Shown here: positions 7,471 through 51,460 of the stretch, piece after piece | Layout of the letters: each line of letters opens with the position of its first letter | How positions within the stretch are numbered: position 1 is the first letter of the stretch | NCBI GenBank assembly: GCA_949152475.1 | Contig: OX424569.1 | Coordinates: 21,861,170-21,925,169 of the forward strand | Source of the DNA: Terebella lapidaria | Taxonomy: Eukaryota > Annelida > Polychaeta > Terebellida > Terebellidae | Reading direction: 5' to 3' | DNA: 64,000 bases | Made by a program: the position numbers and the translations under genes | The notes under the pieces: generated by a model | Databases searched by the model: none | What the model was told of the DNA's origin: nothing | What the model saw: the letters and a program-made list of their open reading frames with translations, nothing else

Positions 7471-9545
7471 AAGGCATTTCGGCAGAAATGCCTTTATGGT
7501 TTTAGCAGAATTTTTTTTTTTTTTTTTTTTTTTTTCTTCCGCCACTTTTGGTTTCCGGACGATAACTTTAGATTGCCTTGACGGATCCTCGTCAAATTTT
7601 CACCACAAGTCAGAAATGATATGTGGAAGAACCCTATTCTTTTTGAGCCGGATCCGAGGTGCGTGAGGTCCGTGAGGATGAAATCAAGGCTAATTTTGAG
7701 ACTTGGTTTCCGGACGATAACTGGAAAAATATTTACGCAATAGTTGCAGAACTCTGCATGGAGGTTCATATGCCACCAGGGAAGAACCCTATTGATTTTG
7801 GGATCGATCCGTCAAACGACCTTTGACCTAGAGGTCAAAATAATTTTTTGCTGGTTCATCCTTGAGGCTTCCTGCATATCTCGGAAACCGTGCGTCGTAG
7901 AGCGAAACGGACGTTATTTTCGGACTCGTCGCCCTAGACAAACATCTCTAGGGTGTATTTTTTTTTTTGATTTTTTTTTTTGATTTTTTTGATGTTTATA
8001 TATCAACAGGGAAGAACCCTATTGATTTTGGGATCGATACGTCAAACGACCTTTGACCTAGAGGTCGAAAACATTTTTTGCCGAGTCATCCTTGAGGCAT
8101 CCTGCATATCCTGGAAACGGTGCGTCGTAGAGCGAAACGGACGTTATTTTCGGACTCGTCGCCCTAGACAAACATGTCTAAGGGGTATTATGGATGAACT
8201 TTGACCTTGACCCGAAATTTTTTTGCCGAGTCGGCATTTTTGGTTTTCGTCGATATCTCGGAAACGGTGCGTCGTAGAGCGAAACGGACGTTATTTTTGG
8301 ACTCGCCGCCCTAGACAAACATGTCTAAGGGGTATTATGGATGAACTTTGACCTTGACCCGAATTTTTTTGCCGAGTCGGCATTTTTCGTTTTCGTCGAT
8401 ATCTCGGAAACGGTGCGTCGTAGAGCGAAACGGACGTTATTTTCGGACTCGTCTAGGGGGTATTATGGATGAACTTTGACCTTGACCTTAAATTTTTTTG
8501 CCGAGTCGGCATTTTTCGTTTTCGTCGATATCTCGGAAACGGTGCGTCGTAGAGCGAAACGGACGTTATTTTCGGACTCATCGCCCTAGACAAACATGTC
8601 TAAGGGGTATTATGGATGAACTTTGACCTTGACCCGAAATTTTTTGCCGAGTCGGCATTTTTCGTTTTCGTCGATATCTCGGAAACGGTGCGTCGTAGAG
8701 CGAAACGGACGTTATTTTCGGACTCGTCGCCCTAGACAAAAATGTCTAAGGGGTATTATGGATGAACTTTGACCTTGACCTTAAATTTTTTTGCCGAGTC
8801 GGCATTTTTCGTTTTCGTCGATATCTCGGAAACGGTGCGTCGTAGAGCGAAACGGACGTTATTTTCGGACTCATCGCCCTAGACAAACATGTATAGAGGG
8901 TATTATGGATGAACTTTGACCTTGACCCAAAATTTTCTTGCCGAGTCGACATTTTTCGTTTTCGTCGATATCTCAGAAACGGTGCGTCGTAGAGCGAAAC
9001 GGACGTTATTTTCGGACTCGTCGCCCTAGACAAACATGTCTAATGGGTATTATTGATGAACTTTGACCTTGACCCGAAATTTTTTGCCGAGTCGGCATTT
9101 TTCGTTTTCGTCGATATCTCGGAAACGGTGCGTCGTAGAGCGAAACGGACGTTATTTTCGGACTCGACGTTTTCGTCGATATCTCGGAAACGGTGCGTCG
9201 TAGAGCGAAACGGACGTTATTTTCGGACTCGCCGCCCTAGACAAACATGTCTAAGGGGTATTATGGATGAACTTTGACCTTGACCCGAAATTTTTTTGCC
9301 GAGTCGGCATTTTTCGTTTTCGTCGATATCTCGGAAACGGTGCGTCGTAGAGCGAAACGGACGTTATTTTCGGACTCGTCGCCCTAGACAAACATGTCTA
9401 ATGGGTATTATTGATGAACTTTGACCTTGACCCGAAATTTTTTTGCCGAGTCGGCATTTTTTGTTTTCGTCGATATCTAGTATATATTATAAATTAATCA
9501 TCACACCGAAATGCCTCCAAGGCATCTTTAGGCCTTGACGTCTAG
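7471..9545 (+). mobile_element. Family B hairpin-ended satellite element, copy B1
   Basis: The 5' hairpin AAGGCATTTCGGCAGAAATGCC is followed by a long T-run and unique sequence with TTTCCGGACGATAACTTTAG. A core of about 147-bp units follows (7790-9480). The 3' end has CCGAAATGCCT, the complement of the 5' arm, then the stem CAAGGC/GCCTTG and ACGTCTAG. The flanks join to regenerate the D core sequence (ACATTATT followed by TTTTTTTGCTAGTTAAG), so both ends are exact: insertion between Ts with no duplication beyond T. Short ORFs inside come from the tandem core and are not genes. Confidence 0.85.
7790..9480 (+). repeat. Family B core tandem repeat (about 147-bp unit)
   Basis: About ten units with the landmarks GTCGATATCTCGGAAAC, GGTGCGTCGTAGAGCG, CTAGACAAACATGTCTA and GAACTTTGACCTTGACC. 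Spacing between successive GATATCTCGG motifs is mostly 146-147 bp, with some truncated units. Neighbouring units are very similar, which suggests recent homogenisation. The same unit forms the 31030-32868 array. Confidence 0.9.
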
Positions 9546-28615: not shown

Positions 28616-30351
28616 ATGTCTAAACCAAAAACAAAATCTAAACCTGTAACGCTCTCACTCGCCGACAAAGTGAAGGCGATTGAACTGTATGATGAACTAC
28701 AAAGTTCGCGCAAAGTTGGCGATGCTTTTGGTGTCAGCAAAGACCAGATAAATCGGCTTGTCAAGCGCAAGGCTGAAGTTTTGGACGAGTTTGAGAGCAA
28801 TGCTCCAAGCGATCGTAAAAGAAAAATCAGAAAAACTGGCAATGAAGAAACTAACACTCTAACATGGCAGTGGTTCACTGACGTGACCACACGCCGTGTT
28901 CAGGTGTCAGGACCAATGATCAAGGTGAGATTATGATGATGACAATAAAAAATTCTAAAATGCGCAACTCGGAATAGAAACAAGTGAAAAACAAGAAAAA
29001 AAACCATTTAATTTGATTTCATTTTTATTTAATTGTTTTTAAAATATTATTTTTTCAGACAAAGGCACTCGAGTTTGCTAGCGACCTGGGGGTGGATTCC
29101 TTTCACGCGTCCAATGGTTGGTTGGAAAGTTTCCTCAAGCGAACCAACATCGTTCTTGGGACAACGTCTGGAGAGAAAGGCGACGTGGATACATCCGTTG
29201 TCGACGATTGGAAGAGTAAGCTGCCTACAGTGTGTGCTGGATATCTGCTGAAGGATATCTTCAACATGGACGAGACAGGCTTGTTCTACAGGCATTCCAA
29301 CACCAAAAAAACTTTCCACGTCAAAGGCACGGACTGCGCTGGCAGCAAGCAGTCAAAAGATAGACTCACGATCGCATTGTGTGCTTCAATGACAGGAGAG
29401 AAAATCACGCCGTTTGTGATTGGAAAGGCCTTAAAACCTCGGTGTTTCAAAAATTTGGACACAAAGACACTACCAGTGCAGTATTGTGCTAACAAGAAGG
29501 CTTGGATGATGAGTGAACTGTTCCGGGATTGGTTAACATACTTCGATCGAAAGATGAAGACTCAGCATCGCAATGTGCTCCTGTTACTTGACAACGCCCC
29601 CTCGCATCCCAGGGTCAAACTCTCGAACGTTAAGTTAGTGTTTCTCCCCCCTAACACAACTTCCCTCGTACAGCCCATGGACCCGGGAATAATCCAGGCC
29701 CTCAAACTGAAGTATCGCAAGAAACAACTCAGCTACGTCCTATCGTCCCTGGGTAAAGACAAGTCCGTGTCCGGTCCAGATGTGTTGCACAGTATCACAG
29801 TCCTCAATGCCATCTACTGGATCGACAGTGCTTGGCGTGATGTGGAGGAGACCACCATTCGAAAATGTTTCGCCCACAGTGGCCTGCACCCAACAGTGTG
29901 TGGTGGTGAGGATACAAATGACGATTCGGCAGACAGTGACACAGAGGACGACGTGCCATTGTCATTGTTACGACTGTCCAAAGAACTTTTTGACACTGAC
30001 TTTCCCAAACTTGACTTGATCGACAATGACTTGGACATTTCTTGGACATTTCTAAGTCACAATGACAATGACTTGGACATTTCTCAGTCGGCTAACGAGA
30101 TCATCCGCCAACAGACTAACGACAATGAGGATCTCGGTGAAGATGAGTCCGTGCCCCCTTCAGGTGAAGAAACCACACCGCCCACACTGACCAAAGCGCA
30201 CAAGTACCTGAGGAAGCTCCAGGAACTGGCAGTATCTCGTGGAGATTGCGCCTATCTGGCTGATGTGATGCGACTTCAAGAACGAACGGCTTCATGGACT
30301 GTCAAATCCGTTGTACAATCGAATATCACAGACTTTTTCACCAAGTCGTAA
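28616..30351 (+). CDS. Tigger/pogo transposase, two exons
   Basis: Exon 1 is 28616-28924 and exon 2 is 29059-30351, joined across a 134-bp GT-AG intron (AAG then GTGAGA; TTTTTTCAG then ACA) to give 533 residues with no break. Residues 10-55 are a Psq/CENP-B-type helix-turn-helix (LSLADKVKAIELYDEL, GVSKDQINRLV). A second DNA-binding part spans the splice joint (VSGPMIK plus TKALEFA, then GWLESFLKR). The DDE catalytic residues are D174 (NMDETGLFY), D281 (LLLDNAPSH) and D311 (VQPMDPGII), spaced DD30D as in pogo elements. The C-terminus is acidic. The ATG at 28616 is preferred because upstream in-frame codons fall in the foldback element. The enzyme would cut and rejoin at the TIRs; activity is not shown by sequence alone. 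Confidence 0.9.
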
Positions 30352-31029: not shown

Positions 31030-32868
31030 ATGGCTGCAGAACTTTGCATGAAGGTTCATATATATCAACAGGGAAGAACCCTATTGATTTTGGGATCAAT
31101 CCGTCGAACGACCTTTGACCTAGAGGTCGGAAGAGTTTTTCGCCCAGTCATCCTTGAGGTTTCCTGCATATCTTGGAAACGGTGCGTCCTAGAGCGAAAT
31201 GGACGTTATTTTCGGATTCGTCGGTTAGACATGTCTAAGGGGTATTAAGGATGACCTTCGACCTTGACCTTGAATTTTTCTGCCGAGTCGGCATTTATCG
31301 TTTTCATCGATTTCTCAGAAACAGTGCGTCGTAGAGCGAAACAGATGTTATTTTCGGCCTCGTGGCACTAGACAAACATGTCTAAGGGGTATTATGGATG
31401 AACTTTGACCTTCACGTAAATTTTTTTTTTGCGAGTCGGCATTTTTCGTTTTCGTCGATATCTCGGAAACGGTGTGTCGTAGAGCGAAACGGACGTTATT
31501 TTTGGACCCGTCGCCCTAGATAAACATGTCTAAGGGGTATTAAGGATGACCTTCGACCTTAACCTTGAATTTTTCTGCCGAGTCGGCATTTTTCATTTCC
31601 GTCGATATCTCGGAAACGGTGCGTCGTAGAGCGACACGGACGTTATTTTCGGACTCGTGGCACTAGACAAACATGTCTAAGGGGTATTATGGATGAACTT
31701 TGACCTTCACCTAAATTTTAGTTGAGTCGGCATTTTTCGTTTTCGTCGATATCTCGGAAACTGTGTGTCGTAGAGTGAAACGGGTGTTATTTTCGGACTC
31801 GTCGCCCTAGACAAACATGTCTAAAGGGTATTGAGGATGACCTTTGACCTTGACCTTGAATTTTCCGCCGAGTCAGCATTTTTTGTTTTCGACAATATCT
31901 CGGAAACGGTGCGTCAGAGATCTAAACGTACGTTATTTTTGGACTCGTCGCCCTAGAAAAACATGTCTAAAGGGTATTCAGGATGACCTTCGACCTTGAC
32001 TTTGAATTTTTCTGCTTCGTTGGCAGTGCGACGTAGAGCGAAACGGACGTTATTTTCGCACTCGTGGCACTAGACAAACATGTCTGAGGGGTATTATGCT
32101 TGAACTTTGACCTTGACCTGAATTTTTTTCGCCAAGCCGGCATTTTTCGTTTACGTCGATATCGGAAACGGTGCGTCGTAGAATGAAACGAATGTTATTT
32201 TCGGACTCGTGGCACTAGACAAACCTGCCTTAGGCGTATTATGGATGAACTTTGACCTTCACCTAAAATTTTTTCGCCGAGCAGGCATTTTTCGTTTTCA
32301 TCGATATCTCGGAAACAGTGCGTCGTAGATCGAAACTGACATTATTTTCGGACTTGTTGTACTAGACAAACATGTCTAAAGGGTATTAAGGATGACTTTT
32401 GACCTTGACCTTTAATTTTTCTGCTGAGTCGGCATTTTTGCGTGCATCGTAGAGCGAACAGACGTTATTTTCGCACTCGTGGCACTAGACAAACATGTCT
32501 ATGGATGAACTTTGACCTTGACCTGAAATTTTTTCGCCGAGCCGTCATTTTTCGTTTTCGTCGATATCTTGGAAACGGTGCGTCGTAGAACAAAACGGAT
32601 GTTATTTTCGTACTCGTGGCACTAGATGGATGAACTTTGACCTTGACCTGAAATTTTTTCACCGAGTCGGTATTTTTCTTTTTCGTCGATATCTCGGAAA
32701 CAGTGCGTCGTAGACTGAAACGGACGTTTTTTCGCACTCGTGGCACTAGACAAACATGTCTAAGGGGTATTATGGATAAACTTTGACCTTGACCTGAAAT
32801 TTTCTCGCCGAATCGGCATTTTTCGTTTCCGTCGATATCTTGGAAACAGTGTGTAGTAGAGTATTGTA
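31030..32868 (+). repeat. Family B core array, diverged (about 147-bp units)
   Basis: About 13 units with GATATCTCGGAAAC, GTGCGTCGTAGAGCG, ACTAGACAAACATGTCTA and TTTGACCTTGACC motifs. Many units have small deletions, and two variants alternate (GTCGCCCTAG and GTGGCACTAG), a sign of older higher-order structure. Confidence 0.85.
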
Positions 32869-33046
32869 GGGCCCATGGTAAACATGTTATAAATATTACA
32901 AATTAGTCTTAACTGCGGACATTGTATATTGCCATTCCATGCAAAGGGGAGCATCCATGCGTGACGATGTATGCATGTACACAAATGAACCGGCCACACG
33001 GCGGAATATAGTCCAGCTATCGACTCACTAGACCGTAACAACCCCT

Positions 33047-34354
33047 ATGCCTCCAAGGAAGCGCAATCGATCGCAAGTTTCGCCACTTCCTGAACAAAAC
33101 AAAATGTCTAGAGAAGAAATACAACCGCTGCCAAATGCGCCACCATGGGCCAACCAGATGTACTTGGGGCTCTCATCCAAAATTGAAAAAGTGAACAGCG
33201 ATGTCCTGGAAAAAATTGAGGCAGTGCGCACTGACGTGAAAAAAAATGAAATACGGATCCAAAACCTGGAAACGGGAAACACTGCTCTACAAACAGATGT
33301 ACGGAGTGTAGAAAGTGAGCAAGACAAAATCTACGATCGTCTTCTTATGCTCGAATCATACTCGATGCGGAAACAACTCCTTTTCCATGGGCTACGGGAG
33401 ACCGCCTTGGAAAGTGAAGAACAAGCGGAAACAACCGTACGCACGTACATACAATCTTATCTTCACATAGATGACACGGAAATCGTATTCGATCATGTAT
33501 ACAGGGTCGGTCCAAAAATAACGTCTCAACCATCTACACCCGACAAAACCAGACCTCGACCAATTATCGCCAGCTTTCTACGATCCAGCCAAAAACAAAA
33601 ATTATGGGACGCGCGCCCGAAGTTCTACGATAGAGAAAATGATTCTTCAAACGCTACTGTACCTGGCAGCAACACGTATGACAACTATTCAGCAGTATAT
33701 ATCACGCGACACTACCCAGCAGAAATTATCAAACGCAGGCGAAGCTTGACGCCTATTCTACAGGCAGCCAAATCGATGACAAAGTACAAAGACAAATGCT
33801 ATCTTCGAGAAGACAAATTAGTGATTGACAACATAAGCTACACGGAGAAAACCCTACCTTTACTCCCAGACGACTTGGATCCTAGATGGATTTCAACACC
33901 CACAGAATCTGATACCACTTTCTTCTGGGGCAGAAACTCACCACTCTCAAATCATCACAAATGCACCTTCCAGGTAGATGGGATTAAGTACAACTGCAAC
34001 GAACAATTCCTGTTTCATCGACAAGCATTGTTTGCAAGAGACAACGATAAGGCAGCAGCAATACTGAATGCAAAAGATCCCGTTGAGCAAAAGGCTCTAT
34101 CGAAACACATAAGGATCAACAAAGCGGCATGGCAACAAACTGCCCCGGAAATCATGAAACAGGGTCTCAGGGCTAAATTTGAACAGAATCCACACCTGCG
34201 CGACTTCCTCGTGCAAACAAAAGGCTCGACAATCGCGGAAGCTTCACCGTTCGACAAATTCTGGGGAATAGGAAACAGACAAAACCAAATGGACTGGTCA
34301 AAATCAACTCGGGAAGCTACTCATGGAGATCCAGTCGGAGCTGGTCTAAATTGA
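33047..34354 (+). CDS. LINE ORF1: coiled coil, RNA-binding part and NADAR domain
   Basis: 435 residues. After a basic, Pro-rich start, residues 38-105 are heptad-rich and likely a trimer-forming coiled coil. Residues 108-180 (QLLFHGLRE, then IVFDHVYRVG and RPIIASFLRS) resemble the RRM of L1 ORF1p, and 185-265 its C-terminal domain. Residues 290-410 read as a NADAR (YbiA-like) domain: FFWGRNSPLSNHHKCTF, CNEQFLFHRQALFARD, IMKQGLRAKFEQNPHLRDFL and SPFDKFWGIGN, with the family's Glu (319), Asp (403) and WG (406-407). NADAR enzymes are N-glycosidases acting on ADP-ribose-type and related substrates. ORF1p normally coats LINE RNA; the added domain's role is unknown. The frame is intact. The call rests on motif reading, not a profile search. 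Confidence 0.8.
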   Translation: MPPRKRNRSQVSPLPEQNKMSREEIQPLPNAPPWANQMYLGLSSKIEKVNSDVLEKIEAVRTDVKKNEIRIQNLETGNTALQTDVRSVESEQDKIYDRLLMLESYSMRKQLLFHGLRETALESEEQAETTVRTYIQSYLHIDDTEIVFDHVYRVGPKITSQPSTPDKTRPRPIIASFLRSSQKQKLWDARPKFYDRENDSSNATVPGSNTYDNYSAVYITRHYPAEIIKRRRSLTPILQAAKSMTKYKDKCYLREDKLVIDNISYTEKTLPLLPDDLDPRWISTPTESDTTFFWGRNSPLSNHHKCTFQVDGIKYNCNEQFLFHRQALFARDNDKAAAILNAKDPVEQKALSKHIRINKAAWQQTAPEIMKQGLRAKFEQNPHLRDFLVQTKGSTIAEASPFDKFWGIGNRQNQMDWSKSTREATHGDPVGAGLN

Positions 34355-34363
34355 GGAACACTG

Positions 34364-35032
34364 ATGGCATCAATACGGTGCAGAAAAATGTCTCGTCGAA
34401 AAATGTGTCCGATCAGAAGTGTATTCGACAATGAACACATCCGGATTAGCGGTCCACATTGTAGGAACCAGCACCTGGCGTACAAATGGCCGGGACACTT
34501 GACTAATGACTACACACTAATCAGCGACAGCATTTGTAAATTCGTCAAGAATACAAGATATACTAGTGTGCAGGCATTTCCAGGTGTACGAATCCGATCA
34601 CTAAAGTGGCACATCAAAATGAATAACGCCACAGTCAAGCACTTCAAACTCGTCATCCTTCACATCGGTACGAATGATCTGTCTTCTGTGTCCTCTGAGG
34701 AAATCGTCAATTCGTACGAGGAACTGCTAACGGAGATTGAAAGAATTAACCCAGAAGCCAAAATAGCCATCTCTTCTATAATTCCACGTCCAAGAGCCAC
34801 CAAATCCCAAGACGAAACTCGCCAACATGTGAATACTTCATTGAGGAGAATCTCCAAGTCGCATGGTTGTGCCTTTCTCTACACATGGAGACCCTTTGTA
34901 CAAAAGAATAAGACCACCAACCGCTCATTGTATTGTAGTGATGAACTTCACCTGAACTACAGAGGTACCGCCGCACTGAAAAACTTTTTTGACGGAACTG
35001 TCAAACGTCTTAGGGGTCAACTCAACCTCTAA
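34364..35032 (+). CDS. LINE-encoded SGNH/GDSL-type hydrolase
   Basis: 222 residues, starting 9 bases after the ORF1 stop, in a different frame. The SGNH blocks are present in order: TLISDSICKF with the nucleophile Ser in the GDS position (56), the block II region with FPGVRI (Gly 74), HIGTNDLSS (block III GxND, 102-105), and SDELHLNYRG (block V, Asp193 and His196). The triad therefore looks complete. Esterase domains of this type are known in ORF1 of CR1-like LINEs; here it is a separate short ORF beside an L1/Tx1-like ORF2. Translation would need reinitiation or an unseen splice. The frame is intact. Confidence 0.8.
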   Translation: MASIRCRKMSRRKMCPIRSVFDNEHIRISGPHCRNQHLAYKWPGHLTNDYTLISDSICKFVKNTRYTSVQAFPGVRIRSLKWHIKMNNATVKHFKLVILHIGTNDLSSVSSEEIVNSYEELLTEIERINPEAKIAISSIIPRPRATKSQDETRQHVNTSLRRISKSHGCAFLYTWRPFVQKNKTTNRSLYCSDELHLNYRGTAALKNFFDGTVKRLRGQLNL

Positions 35033-35186
35033 ACTCGGTGCGTGCGAGTGAGTATTGCTATAGTTACACATACTCTAAGGACTATTCTCTGATTACCAGT
35101 AAAATTCATGGACTATTATGCCAAAACATTTGTATGTCATTGGATGATGGCCAAATTGGCTGTAACTACACATGTATATATATATA

Positions 35187-35701
35187 CAGTACTGATTTCG
35201 CAAAACCTCACCAAAATGCCAGCATGGGACACCTGGCATTTAGCACGTGTTCGCCCAACTTCGCCTGACGTAGCATCATGCGATTTGATGCTAGCATTGT
35301 GTATGCGAGCATCCCTCGATGCTAGCATTGCTTCTTGGCACTGTGGTGCACTAAAAGCATTTCGCATTTTTTGTGAAGGCCATTATATGCTCGCATATGC
35401 TCGCAAACACATGGTCGAGTGGTTTATAAACAGTCTGTATCATGTAGATCATATGGGAAAATGCAGTGTTTCATTTCAGTTCATATTAAAGTCAGTATTT
35501 GCATCCGAAATAAAGGATGCGCGCATCTGTGCGAGACAATGCTCGCCTGTTCAACTAAGACGGCCGCCTGATGCGATGGCATCGCGCCCACTGGTCGCAC
35601 CATGCGATTTGATGCTAGCATCAAGTCGCACGTAATCGCATGGCCTAGCATTTAGCATGTAGCATTCGCATGGCTAGTGAGGTTTTGCGAAATCAGTACT
35701 G
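35187..35701 (+). mobile_element. TA-flanked MITE, copy 1
   Basis: Terminal inverted repeats CAGTACTGATTTCGCAAAAC and GTTTTGCGAAATCAGTACTG, flanked by TA (35185-35186 and 35702-35703), as in Tc1/mariner-type MITEs. The interior has dispersed GATGCTAGCAT and GCGATGCCATCGC motifs. It splits the LINE between its 5' ORFs and ORF2. A close copy lies inverted at 44328-44849. Confidence 0.9.
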
Positions 35702-35702
35702 T

Positions 35703-36210
35703 ATGTGACAAAAAAAGTGATTGTGAGGTAAACTGGGAATGTCTGAGCCCGTCCACGGTGCTGTAAGGATTGCAGGTGAGCGTGCGCTTGTACTTGGCCT
35801 GAGGTTCCGTGGTTCGTGGCTCTTGCATTCCCTACTGTTACACTCCCAGTTACTTACCTTAATTTTTTCTTCATTTCACATCTCATGATGCCGAATTGAG
35901 CTATTGGTTCGAGAGTATGCCTGGCTCCAGGTGTATTAAGTAACAAAATGTGGGTTAGTCGTTGATGCTCAAATTAGCTGTTATATGACAAAAAAGTGAT
36001 TGTGAGGTAAACTGGGAAGTCCGAACCCGGCCACGGTGCTGTAAGGATTGCAGGTGAGCGTGTGCTTGTACTTGGCCTGAAGTTCCGTGGTTCGTGGTTC
36101 TTGCATTCCCTACTGTCACACTCCCAATTACTTATCATAGGTCAATACCCAACATTGTCATTATATATTGTGATGTTACATGTAACTTGAGCTTTTAGTT
36201 CGGGAGCACG
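35703..36210 (+). repeat. 279-bp direct duplication between LINE ORFs
   Basis: AGTGATTGTGAGGTAAACTG, GGTGCTGTAAGGATTGCAGG and TTGCATTCCCTACTGT occur twice, with about 279-bp spacing (first near 35715, again near 35994). Copies are about 90 percent alike by eye. They occupy the region just before ORF2, where repeated promoter or reinitiation sequence could act. Confidence 0.8.
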
Positions 36211-36352
36211 TTTTCGGCTCCAAAAAACGCAAAACTAACGTTCTACTACTGTACAATTTGAAGTGAGATACAAACGTACACGGTAATTTCCAATTATACT
36301 CGTACATGAATCGTGGATCATTCTGAGGCTTGGAGTTTTTTTTGATACAGGT

Positions 36353-39300
36353 ATGACTGTTTTAAACGTGTTCTCATTAAACGTGCGGGGTTTGCGAACA
36401 GATGCGAGGAAGCGAATGAATATATTCAAAACATTTTCGGAAAAACATCGGGGAATAACCTTCTTACAAGAAACTCATAGCATATCTGAGATCGAAAACA
36501 AATGGAAAAATGAATTCAATGGCGAAATAATATTTGCCCACGGCTCTACTAGAAGCAAAGGCGTTGCAATCCTAATCCCCAACTACATGGATTATAAATT
36601 GCTCTCAGTTTTTAAAGACCCCGAGGGGCGCTTTATCATACTAGAAATCACTGTAGATGATATAGACTATATATTAACAAATATATATGCACCAACGAAA
36701 TTGTCTGAAAACGTTCAGATAAATTTTATTGAATCCTTGATCAGCAAACTCTGTGTACACGAAAACAGTAATCTGATAATAGGGGGAAGGAGATTTCAAT
36801 ATTGTGTTAAATCCTCTGGTTGATAAGAAAGGAGGCAACACATCGTTAAGCTCCTGTTGGAAATATCGCGCAGTTCTGGAATCCTTAATGGATACATATG
36901 AATTAAGTGACATATGGAGACTACGAAACGAGGATAAATTCATGTTTACATGGCATTCTAAATCGAAGAAAATATACTGTCGATTAGACTACTGGTTAAT
37001 TGCTAGTCACCTGAGTAGCAGAACAAAAAAGGTAGATATAATCCCCTGTTCCTTATCTGATCATAGCGTTATACAGCTACAACTGGAAAATGGACCAGAT
37101 AGTAAACGTGGCCCAAGTTACTGGAAATTTAACTCCTCACTTCTAAAGGATCCAGAATACATATCTGCAATTAAAACAGTGATAAAGGAAAGTGCAGATA
37201 AATATGATATGGAAGATAAGGCCATGAAATGGGATCTCATTAAAATGGACATACGATTGTCCTCTATCCAATTATCTAAAGTTAAACGGCAAAATAGGAG
37301 TAAAAAAACAGCAGAATTGGAGTCTAAGCTTCAATTTTTGCACGATCAAATTTCGAATCAAGGAGAAACAGATGAAAACCGAGATGAACTCTTAGCAACC
37401 GAACAAGAACTAAACAGTATAAAAAATGAAGACATAGCTGGTATTATTTTACGATCCAAAGCCCAGTGGGCTGAGGATGGTGAGAAAAACTCATCATTCT
37501 TCTTAAACTTAGAAAAACGCAATTATAACAATAAAACTATTTCAAAGTTACAGGTAGATGGACAAATAATAACAAACCCGCCTGATATCCTTAAGGAAGA
37601 GGTGGCATTTTACAGCAACCTATACAAAGCACCCCCCCCCCCCCCCCCATGATCCTCCCGATATCTCAACATATAAATCTTTGTTTACCAATATCCCCCA
37701 ATTGGATGAACGGCAAATGCTTAAAAGTATGATACATATAACAGAATCAACGTGTAGCAGGGCTCTCAAAGATATGAAAAAAGGTAAAACACCGGGGATA
37801 GACGGCTTAACAACAGATTTTTACAAGTTCTTCTGGACAGACATTAAACATTTAGTCGTTGAATCATTCAAATACTCGTATGAAAAGGGGGAATTGTCAA
37901 TAAATCAAAAAAGAAGCATTCTTACTCTAATTCCAAAAAAAGATAGACAATTACTTAAAAATTGGAGACCACTTAGCCTTCTCAATACAGACTATAAACT
38001 GCTTGCTAAACTTATAGCACAATATATTGTCCCGCTGCTTCCTTCCATCATTAACGAGGACCAGAAAGCATATATAAAAGGTCGTTATATTGGTGAAAAT
38101 ATTCGAACCATCTCGGATATTATAGACTTCTGTAAAAAGCGAAATTTATCGTCCATTATACTCATGATTGACTTCGAAAAAGCTTTTGACACAGTCAATT
38201 GGTCTTTTTTAAATGATGCTCTGAAAGCTTTTAATTTTAGTGATAACCTCCGAAAATGGATTAAAATCATATATTCCCACATCAATTGTACAATGAATAA
38301 TAATGGGTATTTTTCCAGCTATTTCGATATACAACGAGGTGTAAGACAGGGCTGCCCACTATCCCCCTATCTTTTCATTATTGCCGTAGAAATAATGACG
38401 ATTAAACTCAGAGCTAATAAAAAAATCAAAGGTATAAAATTAAACCAAAATGAGATCAAAATTAGTCAGTTTGCAGATGATACGACATTATTTCTCGAGG
38501 ACTATGACTCCATAACGCAGGCAAAAGGCTTCTTTCTACTTTTCCAAAAATGCTCAGGACTGAAGATCAACATGGATAAGACCCAAGCATTTCTGATAGG
38601 GAAGCATATGAGATTTAAAGATGATGAATTGCAATGGCACACTGGCCCTATCTCCGCACTCGGAGTAACGATATGTGACAATGAAAATGACAACATAAAA
38701 TTCAATTTCATGCCAAAACTTAAAAAAATGAAAGTACTTCTTAACATATGGAGGCAAAGGAATCTGTCGCTAAAGGGCAAAATTGTTATAATAAATACCT
38801 TGATAGCTTCACTCATTGTATACCCGTGTACAAATTTAACAACGCCTCATAGAATAGTGAAAGACATTGAAAATATTTTATATGACTTTTTGTGGAATGG
38901 GAAAAAACATAAAATAGCAAAGTCAACTATTATAAAAGAAATAGAAGAGGGTGGTTTAGAGATGATTGATATACACAGTAAAATATCTTCGTTGAAGTTA
39001 TCTTGGCTTCGTCAAGCTTTGGATAATCCAAACAGCACATGGAAGCTAATCGTAGACAATATTATCGGCGTTGATTTCCAATATATTATTCGCGGTTATT
39101 CAAAGATAGGCTTGAAAAAATTGCCCTTATTTTATCAAGAAATTTTGAATGACTGGTACACTTTACACACTCCCAAAACTAGCAACACACTCGATGTTCT
39201 AAAAGCGAATATTTGGTTCAATGACAAAATCATGATTGCCAAAAAAACACTATTCTGTAAAAAATGGTATGTGGCAGGTGTGAGGTACTTAGTAGATTTA

Positions 39301-40140
39301 TTAGATTCGTCTGGCAGATTCTTAACACTGGATGCTTTAAAGCTGAAGTATGAGTTAAATGTGAATTTCTTGGAATATCTGAGCCTGAAATCGTCTATAC
39401 CAAAACTCTGGCTGGAGACCATTTCAAAAGATGACATAAACTCCTCTACCCTATTAGAAAATATGTCAAAAGTTTATATCTATGAAAATGAAGAGACATA
39501 CACAGATTTCATGTCTCTAAAAAGTAAAGATTTATACTCTCTATTGTTAAAATCAAAAGTAGGCAACCACACACCGATATGTGTAACCAGATGGAACAAG
39601 ATATACGACATCAGTCCACAAATCTGGCCATGCTTATATGAAGCAGGATGTATATCATGTAGAGAAACCGTACTGCAGTCCTTCCAGTACAAAGTCATCA
39701 ATAGAATAATACCCTGTAATGAATTTTTGTACAATTTAAAGATCATAGAGTCAAATGATTGTACATATAAATCTTGCAATATGCAAGCAGTTGATACAAT
39801 TATACATTATTTTGTTGATTGCAAACCAGTACAACACTTTTGGAATGCATTCGTCAGCTGGTGGAATAATATCAATATATCCAAATTAAATCCTTTGTTG
39901 GGTGAAAACATTATATTAGGATTTCCATGCATTTCAGATGAAGATTGCATTTTGAACTTCTGTCTGATACTAGCTAAATTCTTTATACATAATTGCAAAA
40001 TGAATAGCAAGGACATCTTTTTCTTGGCATTTTTGTCATTACTGAAAAGCAAAATGGAAATTGAAAGACAAATTAGTATCCAAAGAAAGGATCATTCTCT
40101 GTTTAAAAAGCGTTGGGGACTCCTGTATTCAAACCTGTGA
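36353..40140 (+). pseudogene. LINE ORF2: APE endonuclease and reverse transcriptase, two frame breaks
   Basis: The start ATG at 36353 gives MTVLNVFSLNVRGLR. Endonuclease motifs follow: LQETHS, TNIYAPT, then RLDYWLI and SDHSVIQL. A small insertion in GGDFN, at about 36785-36795, shifts the frame. A run of about 18 Cs at 37632-37649 shifts it again. The RT is then open from 37651 to 40140: TPGIDGLTTDFYK, LIPKKDRQLLKNWRPLSLL, MIDFEKAFDTVNW, RGVRQGCPLSPYLF and QFADDTTLF carry the RT motifs in order. A long C-terminal part has a Cys/His pattern (CISCRETVLQSFQYKVI, CNMQAVDTIIHYFVDC) typical of L1/Tx1-type LINEs. The enzyme nicks target DNA and copies LINE RNA. Clade is judged by eye. Confidence 0.85.
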
Positions 40141-40420
40141 AAATGGTGTTTCCTTATACGTGTACATTATCTAGGCATATGTACATGTACTATTTTTTCC
40201 GAAAAATTGGTCCTCTTCCCACTCTCCAAATATAAATGAAGATGGTCCTTCGCAAACGCCGCACGTGCCTCTATGTATCAATGAATATTCATAGTGTCGA
40301 ACTCATGCTTGTGTATCTTTTCTTTCGTTGCTCATCATTATGTGTATGTTTCGTTCATGTTACCTGTATCTGATGTTTATGTGTAATAAAGGGATTTTAA
40401 AAAAAATGAAAAAAATAGTT

Positions 40421-41256
40421 TCTGGTGCTGTTGATTACGATATGATGTTTTGTGGTATTGGGAAAAAATGTTCTTGTCACATGGCAACACGCGAGAACAA
40501 TTCAAAAATAAAACAAACTTCATATTTCCTCCGTTTGTGACAGTATCATATTATGGTTTTCCACGCAAACAAGGACTTGTGAAATCACTGAAATACTACG
40601 TATATAGTGTTTATTATTTGTTAGTTTGTAAAAAATAACATAGATATAATGTTTGAAGCAATATAAAGGTTATAACAACCTGTTATATAAATGTAAGGTC
40701 GATGTCTGTGCAAAAAAATTGGACATTCGTCTATCAGGGCACTTGCTTCTAATGGAACCAATACGTGCAATATCTGTTCATGGACTTGAAGTGGAATAAT
40801 CAGTTTCTGAAATTCGTTATAAATCAATTGGCTACATATTAGATGATATAGCACCATTACAACCCCCAAAATACGTCTGCATGACCCTGTAGAGGAGTTT
40901 GAACATACCGAAAAAACGCACGATGTGAACGATTTGTATATCTGCGCTAACATTTAAACAAAGGCATGAACTTCTCGATATTATCGATATATGCAACTCA
41001 AAAGAATCAAACTGATTATTTGGGGTTTCATCACTATAATATACCATACATATACAAGTTTCAAGTGAATGATCACCTTCAACCAGAAAGCCAAAAACTG
41101 ATTATGCCACTTTACCCTGATGGCTGAAGTTCATTTCAGCATTCTTTGCCAAAACACAAAAGAATTGAACTTGAATATCTTTGAATAATTAACGGGTTTA
41201 CCATGGTTACAATGCTATAGTTTCGCGCTAACTTTGCTGTGTTTTTATCATGGCAG
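40421..41256. other. ADAM17-like intron, no feature seen
   Basis: AT-rich single-copy sequence between the LINE end and the next exon. Short ORFs have no recognisable content. Probably original intron sequence. Confidence 0.6.
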
Positions 41257-47496: not shown

Positions 47497-50117
47497 AGGT
47501 TACCGGACCTATGGTCCGATAACCTATTGGCATGGCGTTGCGTCCGTCGTCCGTCGTCCGTCGTCGTCCGTCGTCGTCCGTCGTCGTCGTCGTCCACATT
47601 TTTATCTTTTTTGTTTACCGGCAAATTCTTCTGAAATTTTGCACAAAAATACTTAAAAATAATTCAAGAAGGAGGTATTTTTTAGTTTTTTGATTTTCGC
47701 ATTTTTTTCAAAATGGCGGCCGTTTTCGAGGAAAAATGCCTGATTTTGGATTTTGGTTGCGATTTTCTCAAAATCTGTTCAGTAACTTTTTTTCTTTTTG
47801 ATACATAACACTCCTGATATGTACTCCTATGATGTCTATAAATTTCGTTGCGCTTGAATCGCTCGAAGTGGGCCATTTTGGCCCAAACTCGGCCCAAATG
47901 GGACTTTCCCATGTTAAATTCTCCTATGCTTTATAATGGGACACATTATGCCTAATATCTCACTTAATATTGCGATTAGAGACTAGGAATCAATTGTGGA
48001 CATATAGGAAATGATATACGCTGAATATTCTCGTGACCTTGAATTTGACCTCTGACCTCAATTTCAAGGTCAGAGCACAAAATGGCTGATATCTCGCTTA
48101 TTATCGACTCTACAGCTTAGGAATCAATTGTGGACATATAGGAAATGATATATGATGAATATTCTCGTGACCTTGAATTTGACCTTTGACCTCATTTTCA
48201 AGGTCACATAACAAAATGGCTAATATCTCGGTTATTATCGACTTTACAGTTTAGGAGTCAATTGTGAACATATAGGAAAGGATATATGCTGAATATTTTC
48301 GTGACCTTGAATTTGACCTTTGACCTCATTTCCAAGGTCACAGGACAAAATTGCTAATATCTCGCTTATTATCGACTTTACAGCTTAGGAATCAATTGTG
48401 AACATATAGGAAATGATATATGCTGAATATTCTCGTGACCTTGAATTTGACCTTTGACCTCATTTTCAAGGTCACAGGACAAAATGGCCAATATCTTGCT
48501 TATTAGTGACTTTACAGCTTAGGAATCAATTGTGAACATATAGGAAATGATATATGCTGAAAATTCTCATGACCTTGAATTTGACCTTTGACCTCATTTT
48601 CAAGGACCCCAAACTCGGCCCAAATGTGACTTTCCCATGTTAAATTTTCCTATGCTTTATAATGGCACACATTAAGCCTAATATCTCACTTAATATTGAA
48701 ATTAGAGACTAGGAATGAATTGTGGACGTATAGGAAATGATATATGCTGAATATTCTCGAGACCTTGAATTTGACTTTTGACCTCATTTTCAAGGTCGAC
48801 AAAATGGCTAATATCTCGCTTATTATCGACTTTACAGCTTAGGAATCAATTGTGAACATATAGGAAATGATATATGCTGAATATTCTTGTGACCTTGAAT
48901 TTGACCTTTGACCTCATTTTCAAGGTCACATGACAAAATGGCTAATATCTCGCTTATTATCGACTTTACAGTTTAGGAATCAATTGTGAACATATAGGAA
49001 ATGATATATGCTGAATATTTTCGTGACCTTGAATTTGACCTTTGACCTCATTTCCAAGGTCGTAGGACAAAATTGCTAATATCTCGCTTATTATCGACTT
49101 TACAGCTTAGGAATCAATTGTGAACATATAGGAAATGATATATGCTGAATATTCTCGTGGCCTTGAATTTGAGCTTTGACCTCATTTTCAAGATCACAGT
49201 ACAAAATGGCCAATATCTTGCTTATTAGCGACTTTACAGCTTAGGAATCGATTGTGAACTTATAGGAAATGATATATGCTGAAAATTCTCGTGACATTGA
49301 ATTTGACCTTTGACCTCATTTTCAAGGTCACAGGACAAAACGGCCAATATCTTGCTTATTAGCGACTTTACAGCTTAGGAATCAATTGTGAACATATAGG
49401 AAATGATATATGCTGAATTATCTCATGACCTTGAATTTGACCTTTGACCTCATTTCCAAGGTCACAGGACAAAATTGCTAATATCTCGCTTATTATCGAC
49501 TTTACAGCTTAGCAATCAATTGTGAACATATAGGAAATGATATATGCTGAATATTCTCATGACCTTGATTTTGACTTTTGACCTCATTTTCAAGGTCACA
49601 GGACAAAATGGCCAATATCTTGCTTATTAGCGCCCTTACAGCTTAGAAATCAATTGTGAACATATAGGAAATGATATATGCTGAATGTTCTAGTGACCTT
49701 GAATTTGACTTTTGACCTCATTTTCAAGGTCAACAGGACAAAATGGCTAATATCTCGCATCGACTTTACAGTTTAGGAATCAATTGTGAACATATAGGAA
49801 ATGATATATTCTGAATATTTTAATGATATTGAATTTGACCTTTGACCTAAATTTCAAGGTCAGTCATTTTATTTTCAAAGTCAGATTACAAAATGGCTTA
49901 TATCTCGCTTATTATCAAATTTACAGCTTAGGGGTCCATAGTGAACATATAGGAAATGATGTATGCTGAATAGTTTGGTGATCTAGAATTTAACCTTTGA
50001 TCCCATTTTCAAGGTTAGAGATATGGCGATTTCAGTGGTCACCTTGAATTTGACCTTCAACTTTCTCGGCTTAACTCTGTATATTTCTCCGGTAACCTTT
50101 CTAGCCCATTGGGCTAA
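47497..50117 (+). mobile_element. Innermost family A element, copy A2c
   Basis: Complete: hairpin AGGTTACCGGACC/GGTCCGATAACC, a long CGTCGTCCGT tract, left domain, about sixteen 134-bp units, and an end with CTCCGGTAACC and TAGCCCA-TT-GGGCTAA. The flanks, CAGTAACTTTTT before and TTTTTTCTTATTGATGA after, join into undisturbed A sequence. Units are unusually alike, suggesting that this is one of the youngest copies. Confidence 0.8.
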
Positions 50118-51460
50118 TTTTTTCTTATTGATGAAAAACACTCCTCATATGTACCCGTGCGACATGTATAAATTTCGATGTGCTTGAATCGCTTGAAGTG
50201 GGCCATTTTGGGCCCAAACTCGACCCAAATGTGACTTTCCCATGTTAAATTTTCCTATGCTTTATAATGGCACACATTAAGCCTAATATCTCACTTAATA
50301 TTGAAATTAGAGACTAGGAATGAATTGTGGACATATAGGAAATGATATATGCTGAATATTCTCGTGACCTTGAATTTGACTTTTGACCTCATTTTCAAGG
50401 TCACAGGACAAAATGGCTAATATCTCGCTTATTATCGACTTTACAGCTTAGGAATCAGTTGTGAACATATAGGAAATGATATATGCTGAATATTCTTGTG
50501 ACCTTGAATTTGACCTTTGACCTCATTTTCAAGGTCACATGACAAAATGGCTAATATCTCGCTTATTATCGACTTTACAGTTTAGGAATCAATTGTGAAC
50601 ATATAGGAAATGATATATGCTGAATATTTTCGTGACCTTGAATTTGACCTTTGACCTCATTTCCAAAGTCGCAGGACAAAATTGCTAATATCTCGCTTAT
50701 TATCGACTTTACAGTTTAGGAATCAAATGTGAACATATAGGAAATGATATATGCTGAATATTTTCGTGACTTTGAATTTGACCTTTGACCTTATTTCCAA
50801 GGTCACAGGACAAAATTGCTAATATCTCGCTTACTATCGACTTTACAGCTTAGGAATCAATTGTGAACATATAGGAAATGATATATGCTGAAAATTCTCG
50901 TGACCTTGAATTTGACATTTGACCTCATTTTCAAGGTCACAGGACAAAATGGCCAATTCTTACTTATTAGCGACTTTACAGCTTAGGAATCAATTGTGAA
51001 CATATAGGAAATGATATATGCTGAATATTCTCGTGACCTTGAATTTGACTTCTGACCTCATTTTCAAGGTCAACAGGACAAAATGGCTAATATCTCGCTT
51101 ATTATCGACTTTACAGTTTAGGAATCAATTGTGAACATATAGGAAATGATATATTCTGAATATTTTAATGATATTGAATTTGACCTTTGACCTAAATTTC
51201 AAGGTCAGTCATTTTATTTTCAAAGTCAGATTACAAAATGGCTTATATCTCGCTTATTATCAAATTTACAGCTTAGGGGTCCATAGTGAACATATAGGAA
51301 ATGATGTATGCTGAATAGTTTGGTGATCTAGAATTTAACCTTTGATCCCATTTTCAAGGTTAGAGATATGGCGATTTCAGTGGTCACCTTGAATTTGACC
51401 AACTTTCTCGGCTCAACTCTGTATATTTCTCCGGTAGCCTTTCTAGCCCATTTGGGCTAA
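48606..51460 (+). repeat. 1.3-1.5 kb segment present twice in direct orientation
   Basis: 48606-50117 and 50213-51460 share rare variants in the same order: CTTTATAATGGCACACATT, GAGACTAGGAATGAATTG, GTCATTTTATTTTCAAAG, GGGGTCCATAGTGAAC and AGATATGGCGATTTCAGTGG. The second copy lacks a couple of core units. Shared private variants indicate a recent duplication or conversion rather than two independent insertions. Confidence 0.85.

Follow-up and report, generated by a model that had tools for sequence, protein, structure and literature searches.

What a long interspersed nuclear element (LINE) might gain from an RNA-coating protein that ends in a NADAR domain, and from an SGNH hydrolase gene lying directly behind it, is the question raised by a stretch of 64,000 nucleotides of the annelid Terebella lapidaria (contig OX424569.1, positions 21,861,170 to 21,925,169 of the forward strand), the whole of which is referred to here as the window. 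The element in question is a damaged member of a multi-copy L1-superfamily LINE family that has been active recently. A preliminary description of the window had suggested that its NADAR domain might reverse ADP-ribosylation of the element's RNA or cDNA. The reading favoured here, held at somewhat less than an even chance, is that in this recently active LINE the NADAR domain on the protein of the first open reading frame (ORF1p, from ORF1) removes a base adduct from the ribonucleoprotein (RNP), and that the SGNH hydrolase is a separate, lipid-directed partner in the same cassette. The genome searched comprised 762 Mb in 438 contigs, and 24 long loci from it (L009-L032) were compared with the window. 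Published work is cited from excerpts of the papers, and statements about it extend to those excerpts.

A LINE family with a NADAR domain in ORF1

The features of the element, in positions of the window, are the following.

32912-40423, plus strand: LINE copy with an L1-superfamily ORF2 (blastn against L009-L012 and end sequences; A-rich tail after AATAAA)
33047-34354, plus strand: ORF1, 435 amino acids, with coiled coil, RNA recognition motif (RRM), C-terminal domain (CTD) and then NADAR (Pfam, L1 ORF1p profile, sister alignment)
33224-33781, plus strand: LINE-1 ORF1p-like part, with coiled coil, RRM and start of the CTD (profile; span estimated)
33920-34303, plus strand: NADAR domain, ORF1 residues 292-419 (Pfam E 7.9e-31; NCBIfam TIGR02464)
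34274-34275, no strand: about here 23 bp present in sister copies are missing, which shifts the ORF1 frame
34364-35032, plus strand: SGNH hydrolase ORF, 222 amino acids, transposon-esterase type (Lipase_GDSL_2 E 2.3e-14; profile best match 4c1b)
35187-35701, no strand: insert of 515 bp, missing from L009-L012, between SGNH and ORF2
35711-36139, no strand: two copies of a repeat between SGNH and ORF2, at a spacing of about 279 bp, shared with sister copies
36353-36823, plus strand: ORF2 piece 1, start of an apurinic-type endonuclease (99% identical to L009 ORF2 residues 1-145)
36804-37652, plus strand: ORF2 piece 2, remainder of the endonuclease with the linker, in another frame (ORF listing, L009 comparison)
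37681-40140, plus strand: ORF2 piece 3, reverse transcriptase (RT) and C-terminal part (RVT_1 E 6.6e-38; zf-RVT match sub-threshold)

The coiled coil and RRM-like part that had been noticed in ORF1 were recovered by profile comparison. A profile of 13 ORF1 N-terminal halves matched LINE-1 ORF1p (2ykp E 2.8e-9, 2ldy E 2.2e-6), four LINE-1 ORF1p chains heading the list of PDB matches (from 2ykp at 2.8e-9 to 2w7a at 7.9e-6) and mostly coiled coils lying below them, and the type II ORF1 layout of coiled coil, RRM and CTD is present in the window family. The NADAR domain that follows was confirmed both by profile and by structure prediction. Pfam NADAR (PF08719) scored 107.9 bits against a cut-off of 35.1 (E 7.9e-31), only two PDB sequences matched the window NADAR, namely 8bau from Phytophthora nicotianae and E. 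coli YbiA 2b3w, and the C-terminal part of a full-length ORF1 profile matched the same two at E 5.5e-31 and E 1.6e-21 respectively. An AlphaFold model of the window NADAR built from five rows had a mean predicted local distance difference test score (pLDDT) of 61, its core being well and its ends poorly predicted, and in Foldseek it found 8bau at E 1.2e-4, YbiA 2b3w at E 0.012 and nothing else at E <1.

Residue roles were taken from PMC11543638, the P. nicotianae numbering being placed on the 8bau chain with an offset of 2, which is our own reading. Residues E319, K349, W362, E398, D403 and W406 are kept in the window. Among 19 aligned ORF1s (the window and 18 of the 24 loci, the near-copies L010-L013, L015 and L016 being left out), equivalents of E43, K75, W89 and E125 were found in 19/19, which includes both ribose-coordinating glutamates (E43, E125), and equivalents of D130 and W133 in 18/19. 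Pfam NADAR was matched at E <= 0.001 in 19/19 of these ORF1s, a figure that gives no guide to the share of ORF1s lacking NADAR since the loci were picked by similarity to a NADAR-bearing ORF1.

The genome contains at least 150 NADAR matches, all of the 150 scored out of 973 candidates being above the Pfam cut-off, and two ORF1 searches gave at least 103 and at least 104 matches (97 of 948 and 98 of 1151 candidates scored); these counts are lower bounds that overlap, and LINE ORF1 status was shown for part of the NADAR matches. A one-off capture of host sequence, which the preliminary description had named as its possible undoing, is rejected by these numbers together with the NADAR in 19/19 aligned ORF1s. 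Two places differ from the general run. At G000:C6:12340190-12377586 five NADAR matches with near-equal scores lie on one strand within about 37 kb, unlike dispersed copies. At L051 (G000:C8:826500-830300, reverse strand) a frame of 812 amino acids runs from a Gypsy-type pol straight into NADAR and is followed by the start of a LINE ORF2; the likeliest explanation is that a truncated NADAR-LINE happened to insert in frame.

Sister copies with both NADAR and SGNH, the existence of which had been raised as a check, were found at L009-L012 and elsewhere. L009-L012 are 98.0-98.4% identical to the window LINE by blastn and have ORF1, SGNH and ORF2 in the same order; the 5' end of the window copy is about 200 bp short of that of L009, and that of L012 is shorter still. 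These are the four other places in the genome with ORF1s 96% identical over residues 1-422, around each of which 9.9 kb was examined. In L009 all three ORFs are open (441, 222 and 1259 amino acids), ORF1 is broken in L010 and ORF2 in L011 and L012; the identity of these last three copies to L009 is 99.3-99.7%, measured over 6.9-7.2 kb. Poly(A) after AATAAA closes the sister elements. Target-site duplications (TSDs) were looked for in eight copies (L009-L016) and the window, and three of the eight gave one (16 bp in L009, 13 bp each in L012 and the related L014); L010, L011 and the window showed no TSD of at least 6 bp in a simple search, and the true 5' ends of L013, L015 (6 bp match only) and L016 lie upstream of the place tested. 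Recent activity of the family is indicated by the near-identity of the sister copies and the TSDs on some of them.

The earlier statement that neither ORF1 nor SGNH is interrupted, and that this looks like recent activity, is not supported for the window copy. Compared with sister copies, a loss of 23 bp puts this ORF1 after about residue 410 (its last 25 or so codons) in another frame, the last conserved NADAR helix is gone, and the ORF is therefore damaged though free of stops. ORF2, which had rightly been called broken, is split over three frames (36353-40140). Its intact counterpart in L009 is L1-like, matching L1 ORF2p (9k6g) at E 1.7e-93 over residues 4-883, which takes in endonuclease and RT, and it contains Exo_endo_phos at E 3.3e-8. 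The 515-bp insert is flanked by 28-bp perfect inverted repeats (35184-35211 and 35677-35704) and looks like a small non-autonomous DNA transposon.

A precedent for the NADAR in ORF1 exists, the only link of NADAR to LINEs met with in the open-access literature searched. Several Tx1 families of the oyster Crassostrea gigas, likewise L1-superfamily LINEs, have ORF1s that appear to hold a YbiA-family NADAR, for which RNA processing has been suggested (PMC12477816), and the window family probably belongs to the Tx1 clade, a label given by resemblance to those elements, which were compared by description. In the excerpt that account is a brief remark in a paper on brown-alga transposable elements (TEs), with no SGNH ORF, catalytic residues, copy structure or other superfamily. 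The initial impression that no LINE was known with this pair of domains accordingly falls as regards NADAR, which was already in print, and stands as regards the SGNH companion, which appears new.

The SGNH hydrolase and its pairing with ORF1

As first described, a complete SGNH hydrolase begins nine nucleotides after the ORF1 stop, with residues S56, G74, N104, D193 and H196, and also H100 and S137. The best PDB match of an SGNH profile was 4c1b, the ORF1-encoded esterase of ZfL2-1 (E 5.1e-15), above the platelet-activating factor (PAF) acetylhydrolases. Catalytic Ser, Gly and Asn are present in 7/7 SGNH rows and Asp and His in all 6 rows that reach them. The ZfL2-1 residues H191 and S228, called transposon-specific by Schneider and colleagues and mapped through the 4c1b alignment and their residue numbers, correspond to window H100 (5/7 rows; Leu in L029 and L032) and S137 (7/7). 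A model of the SGNH protein from the single sequence had a mean pLDDT of 41 and was set aside. By its residues the window SGNH looks like the LINE esterase type.

The esterases of type IV ORF1s in ZfL2-1, CR1 and RTEX elements (PMC3905857, PMC4120745) share the same SGNH catalytic residues, and the window protein has the additional His and Ser as well. Unlike them it is a separate protein behind an RRM- and NADAR-bearing ORF1; the type IV arrangement, with the esterase fused in ORF1 behind a coiled coil, was not found. In a survey of 2013 esterase and RRM were not found within a single ORF1p, and the two were suggested to be redundant or to exclude each other (PMC3905857). Since the window SGNH is encoded separately that statement is not contradicted; in this family a single LINE encodes both, the RRM-type ORF1p and the SGNH esterase being distinct proteins.

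SGNH was found in 12/25 NADAR-ORF1 loci (the window, L009-L017, L029 and L032) with a profile of both SGNH types described below. The distance from ORF1 could be read in 9 of these 12 and is 0 nt in L029, 9 in the window, 14 in L009, L011 and L012 (where ORF1 has 441 amino acids), 31 in L014 and L016, and -26 nt in L017; in L015 it is 88 nt, the ORF1 there being stopped early. Gaps as short as these would allow coupled translation. At 22/32 places with an SGNH of the window type (at least 50% identity, at least 163 codons) a NADAR-ORF1 match lies on the same strand within 1 kb upstream, and the remaining 10/32 may be 5'-truncated copies.

It is quite possible, if on the doubtful side of even, that the pairing arose from two unrelated acquisitions of SGNH that happened to fall beside a NADAR-ORF1. 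The two SGNH types are 24-27% identical to each other. The second, that of L029 and L032, has GGNN in place of GTND in block III and is without the transposon-specific His, and may therefore have been captured independently. No SGNH was found at 13/25 NADAR-ORF1 loci, where a more divergent one could be missed, so that NADAR seems to need no SGNH. Of 59 weaker SGNH places (24-40% identity, at least 97 codons), 13 are preceded by a listed NADAR-ORF1, every one of them of the L029/L032 kind, and the other 46 are not (the neighbours outside the 13 were checked by eye), from which SGNH genes appear to be common in the genome. Against mere chance stand the position of SGNH directly behind NADAR-ORF1 in both types (gaps of -26 to 88 nt in the 9/12 loci) and the fact that ORF1 and SGNH occur together on different ORF2s in L029 and L032.

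Synonymous sites were saturated in most pairs of copies, and the ratio of non-synonymous to synonymous differences (pN/pS) was therefore used in place of dN/dS, the measure originally proposed. It was 0.26-0.58 for NADAR, 0.20-0.54 for the N-terminal part of ORF1, 0.36-0.45 for ORF2, and for SGNH 0.25-0.39 within each type and 0.76 between types. The values lie below 1 on both NADAR and SGNH, and suggest that the two are constrained about as much as ORF2.

ORF1 and SGNH on different ORF2 types

The NADAR-bearing ORF1 is not confined to the L1-like ORF2 of the window family. Another type of ORF2 is present in L026, L027 and L029-L032. That of L029 matches L1 ORF2p in the RT only (E 8.6e-19), Exo_endo_phos_2 was found in all four of those scanned (L026, L027, L029 and L031) with zf-RVT matches sub-threshold, and five of the six (L026, L027, L029, L031 and L032) have a 2A-like motif near the ORF2 start, that of L030 being degenerate. 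Such motifs occur in LINEs of the CR1/L2 group, and Exo_endo_phos_2, the sub-threshold zf-RVT and the 2A-like NPGP motifs are the basis on which these six are labelled CR1/L2-like, a putative assignment. The motifs (GDVEVNPGP, GDVESNPGP in L029, and variants) follow a hydrophobic stretch, and one is present in L051 too. The ORF2s of L025 and L028 are of a third, shorter type in which no 2A-like motif was seen, and were placed with the CR1-like group in the trees.

The RT tree set the L1-type elements apart from all others (support 100/100), the two sides lying about 3.9 changes per site from each other. Across this split ORF1 is one family: that of the window is 26-32% identical to those of L025-L032 over the whole ORF1, and the RT of the window is 23-30% identical to those of L025-L028 over 114-264 amino acids only. 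Within families ORF1 and ORF2 diverge alike (L009 and L014 are 53-59% identical in parts of ORF1 and 56% in ORF2), so that ORF1 looks younger than the RT split, and on this ground we infer that the NADAR-ORF1 has probably crossed between LINE types at least once. One point against such a crossing is that ORF1 has been called the more conservative part of intact elements (PMC11203168), and one against its novelty is that L1-type ORF1s have been described before from CR1 and L2 elements (PMC4120745). The type II ORF1s of the L1, CR1, L2 and R1 clades described in the latter paper resemble those studied here in their coiled coil, RRM and CTD and in their reticulate exchange; its excerpt mentions no NADAR, which here goes with ORF1 and does so once together with SGNH. 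Accessory enzyme domains are here seen to be carried along in an exchange of LINE ORF1s that is already known to be reticulate.

The joint movement is seen in L029 and L032. L029 is sister to L027 in the RT tree (91-98% bootstrap) and sister to L032 in the ORF1 tree (100/100), and in approximately unbiased (AU) tests with eight rows each the alternative grouping was rejected at p 1.0e-6 for RT and 2.9e-7 for ORF1, the groups tested having been chosen after the trees were seen. The identities run the same way: L029 and L032 are 59% identical in ORF1, 61% in SGNH and 36% in ORF2, L027 and L029 36% in ORF1 and 56% in ORF2, and L026 and L032 36% in ORF1 and 50% in ORF2. The L029 arrangement recurs at five other places with 96-98% identity over the full length of a 2.1-kb probe that runs from the end of ORF1 to the start of ORF2, and further places begin later in the probe, as expected of 5' truncation. 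Given the conflict of the two trees, the identities and the fact that SGNH goes with ORF1, the ORF1-NADAR part and SGNH have, as judged from sequence, moved jointly onto another ORF2, or the ORF2 has been replaced. That L032 is a nested insertion was considered and rejected: its SGNH-to-ORF2 order recurs once, with a shorter spacer, at C5:716893-718116, so that it looks like one element, the case being weaker than that of L029 (at C1:41067092 there is only the 3' part of the L032 probe). The RT tree is largely unresolved within the L1-type group and no exchange is therefore claimed there. L030 (G000:C16:29036000-29043500) groups by ORF1 with L025 and L028 (100/99) and by RT with L026, L031 and L032 (89/87), on long branches, and is possibly another case of ORF1 exchange.

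The same junction and the same N-terminal half in 19/19 ORF1s point to one fusion of NADAR to ORF1, and a single fusion event is what the sequences suggest. A tree with 13 phage, plasmid and bacterial NADARs was compatible with a single LINE clade without demonstrating it (AU p 0.166). The NADARs of the other LINEs, the window apart, are 33-58% identical to that of L009, and phage and plasmid NADARs are about as close: the closest phage NADAR among the matches listed (10 of 754) is 45% identical to the NADAR of L021, and plasmid NADARs among the matches listed (10 of 69) show 30-44% identity. Viral contigs gave 38 pattern matches, none of which was confirmed as a relative.

Possible roles of the NADAR domain

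If the favoured reading is followed step by step, ORF1p would coat the element RNA by means of its coiled coil, RRM and CTD, so that NADAR would ride with the RNP, where by hydrolysis it would free the bases of element RNA or cDNA, or of nearby nucleic acid, from ADP-ribose or some related N-glycoside, and this erasure would keep the template readable in target-primed reverse transcription. The most attractive writer would be a guanine-N2 ADP-ribosyltransferase such as the CARP-1 of a clam, and not protein PARylation. The SGNH protein would probably act on lipids and aid RNP assembly or transport at membranes, as was proposed for the ZfL2-1 ORF1 esterase, and NADAR and SGNH would be adjacent as a travelling 5' cassette and not as catalysts of one pathway. 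Characterised NADARs hydrolyse guanine-N2 ADP-ribose, including a eukaryotic one that is not associated with DarT, and the paper reporting this cites CARP-1 of Meretrix lamarckii as a guanine-N2 writer and assumes erasure by NADARs (PMC11543638). The ZfL2-1 work points to lipids and membranes for the SGNH esterase (PMC3905857).

In addition to the SGNH-less loci and the stray SGNH places described above, a number of observations weigh against this reading. Efficient hydrolysis of guanine-ADP-ribose depends on lysine K95 in E. coli C7, which corresponds to K50 in P. nicotianae (PMC11543638), and this active-site lysine is replaced in the window by Q326; its equivalent is kept in 14/19 ORF1s and gone in the window, L009, L014, L017 and L018. 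The R79 position is Arg in 4/19, Lys in 9/19 and neither in 6/19, and at the R93 position the profile consensus has a residue other than Arg. The NCBIfam model TIGR02464, that of a riboflavin-intermediate N-glycosidase, was matched above cut-off by the window NADAR (105.2 bits against 73.7) and by those of L021 and L029. In E. coli de-ADP-ribosylation alone gave no protection from DarT1 (PMC11125620). PARP1/2 are reported to support human L1 insertion (PMC8535693), for which reason a PARP-type defence, the opponent first envisaged, is not the best candidate. As K50 is lost, the site may have drifted and the NADAR activity of the window subfamily may be altered. A lysine stands at the K50 place in 11/13 of the phage, plasmid and bacterial NADARs aligned, L035 and L036 having a gap, and its loss in the window subfamily together with conserved glutamates appears to be new within the open-access literature searched. 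The P. nicotianae protein (8bau) and the DarT1-associated NADARs (PMC11543638) share the fold and the equivalents of E43, K75, W89, E125, D130 and W133, and differ in keeping the lysine and in having no retrotransposon attached.

That the catalytic lysine is gone from the window subfamily and from L018 (5/19), with NADAR pN/pS among them as low as 0.33-0.43, would also suit a module that binds nucleic acid or ADP-ribose and hydrolyses nothing, serving for example as a tether to ADP-ribosylated chromatin or PARP-marked nicks. PARP1 is reported to accompany human L1 ORF2p at what are proposed to be intermediates of insertion (PMC5821459). The conserved E43 and E125 (19/19), D130 and W133 (18/19) and lysine (14/19) suggest, on the other hand, catalysis in most families, and a pure binding role is considered unlikely, with an appreciable chance of being right all the same. 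A further alternative, that NADAR is an N-glycosidase for metabolites or damaged nucleotides of the YbiA or riboflavin-intermediate type, which cleans RNA or the deoxynucleotide pool, has in its favour the TIGR02464 scores and the presence of the E125-type glutamate of the YbiA subfamily, but the P. nicotianae NADAR, itself of that subfamily and not associated with DarT, hydrolyses guanine-ADP-ribose (PMC11543638), and fusion to an RNA-coating protein would suggest a polymer as substrate; it is judged improbable, though worth keeping in view. That NADAR and SGNH were taken from a host or microbe and ride along without serving the element, as retroelements do pick up extra ORFs and the Gypsy pol of L051 came to run into NADAR by insertion, is scarcely credible in the face of at least 150 NADAR matches, the same junction in 19/19, NADAR pN/pS of at most 0.58 and the different ORF2 types.

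To return to base-adduct removal, its boldest form holds that LINE RNPs carry their own eraser of host-written base ADP-ribose (on guanines, or as another base adduct, from a writer such as a CARP-1-like transferase), as a counter-defence cassette, at times with the lipid-directed SGNH protein, that has been selected and moved between LINE backbones and superfamilies. A counter-defence role for NADAR is plausible, and its presence in distant branches of these elements suggests that it aids their spread; the full statement is rather unlikely; if true, base ADP-ribosylation would be an antitransposon defence in animals.

Other selfish elements carry one or other of the two domains. Ectocarpus Gypsy elements with a YbiA-family NADAR in Pol (PMC12477816) are likewise retrotransposons, but ones with long terminal repeats (LTRs), with the domain at another place in the polyprotein and reported as closest to bacterial sequences. 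Animal RNA viruses (nidoviruses, hepe-like viruses and bivalve picornaviruses; PMC9503650) resemble the LINEs as RNA-based selfish elements with NADAR and, as far as their description goes, differ in holding it inside replicase polyproteins. Bdelloid LTR retrotransposons and Athena elements have a GDSL ORF3 (PMC5408684), which is again a separate SGNH/GDSL ORF shared between classes of retroelements; these are LTR and Penelope-like elements, and the excerpt mentions no NADAR. A bivalve TE survey (PMC10294476) mentions neither NADAR nor esterase. In the open-access literature, with subscription papers, preprints and Repbase outside the search, neither a LINE with both NADAR and SGNH nor a NADAR-ORF1 in a second LINE superfamily was found. 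NADAR in a LINE ORF1 (barely described), LINE esterases and L1-type ORF1s in CR1/L2 elements are already known; what appears to be new within that literature is an SGNH companion that follows an RRM-type ORF1, together with the exchange from one LINE backbone to another. The physiological role of eukaryotic NADARs, those of animals included, has been called unclear (PMC11125620), and at least 150 NADAR places, with fusion to an RNA-packaging protein in 19/19 and on several LINE types, make a tractable system for approaching that role in animals and for asking whether base ADP-ribosylation acts against mobile elements.

A few minor observations concern the relatives of the element and its surroundings. 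An ORF of 126 amino acids, sharing 13 bases with the beginning of ORF2, is present in L014 (4226-4606), L015 (4373-4753) and L016 (4327-4707), in sense-strand coordinates with L014 reverse-complemented, and also in L013; that of L014 had no Pfam match. Near the LINE in the window an ORF of 419 amino acids (29092-30351) encodes a Tigger/pogo-like DDE_1 transposase (E 4.5e-47) with a sub-threshold match to a Tc5-type helix-turn-helix. Tandem satellite-like arrays with units of about 147 bp lie at 8106-9478 and 31168-32750, the second ending just before the LINE copy, and there are many 134-bp tandem arrays in the window, for example at 48678-51207.

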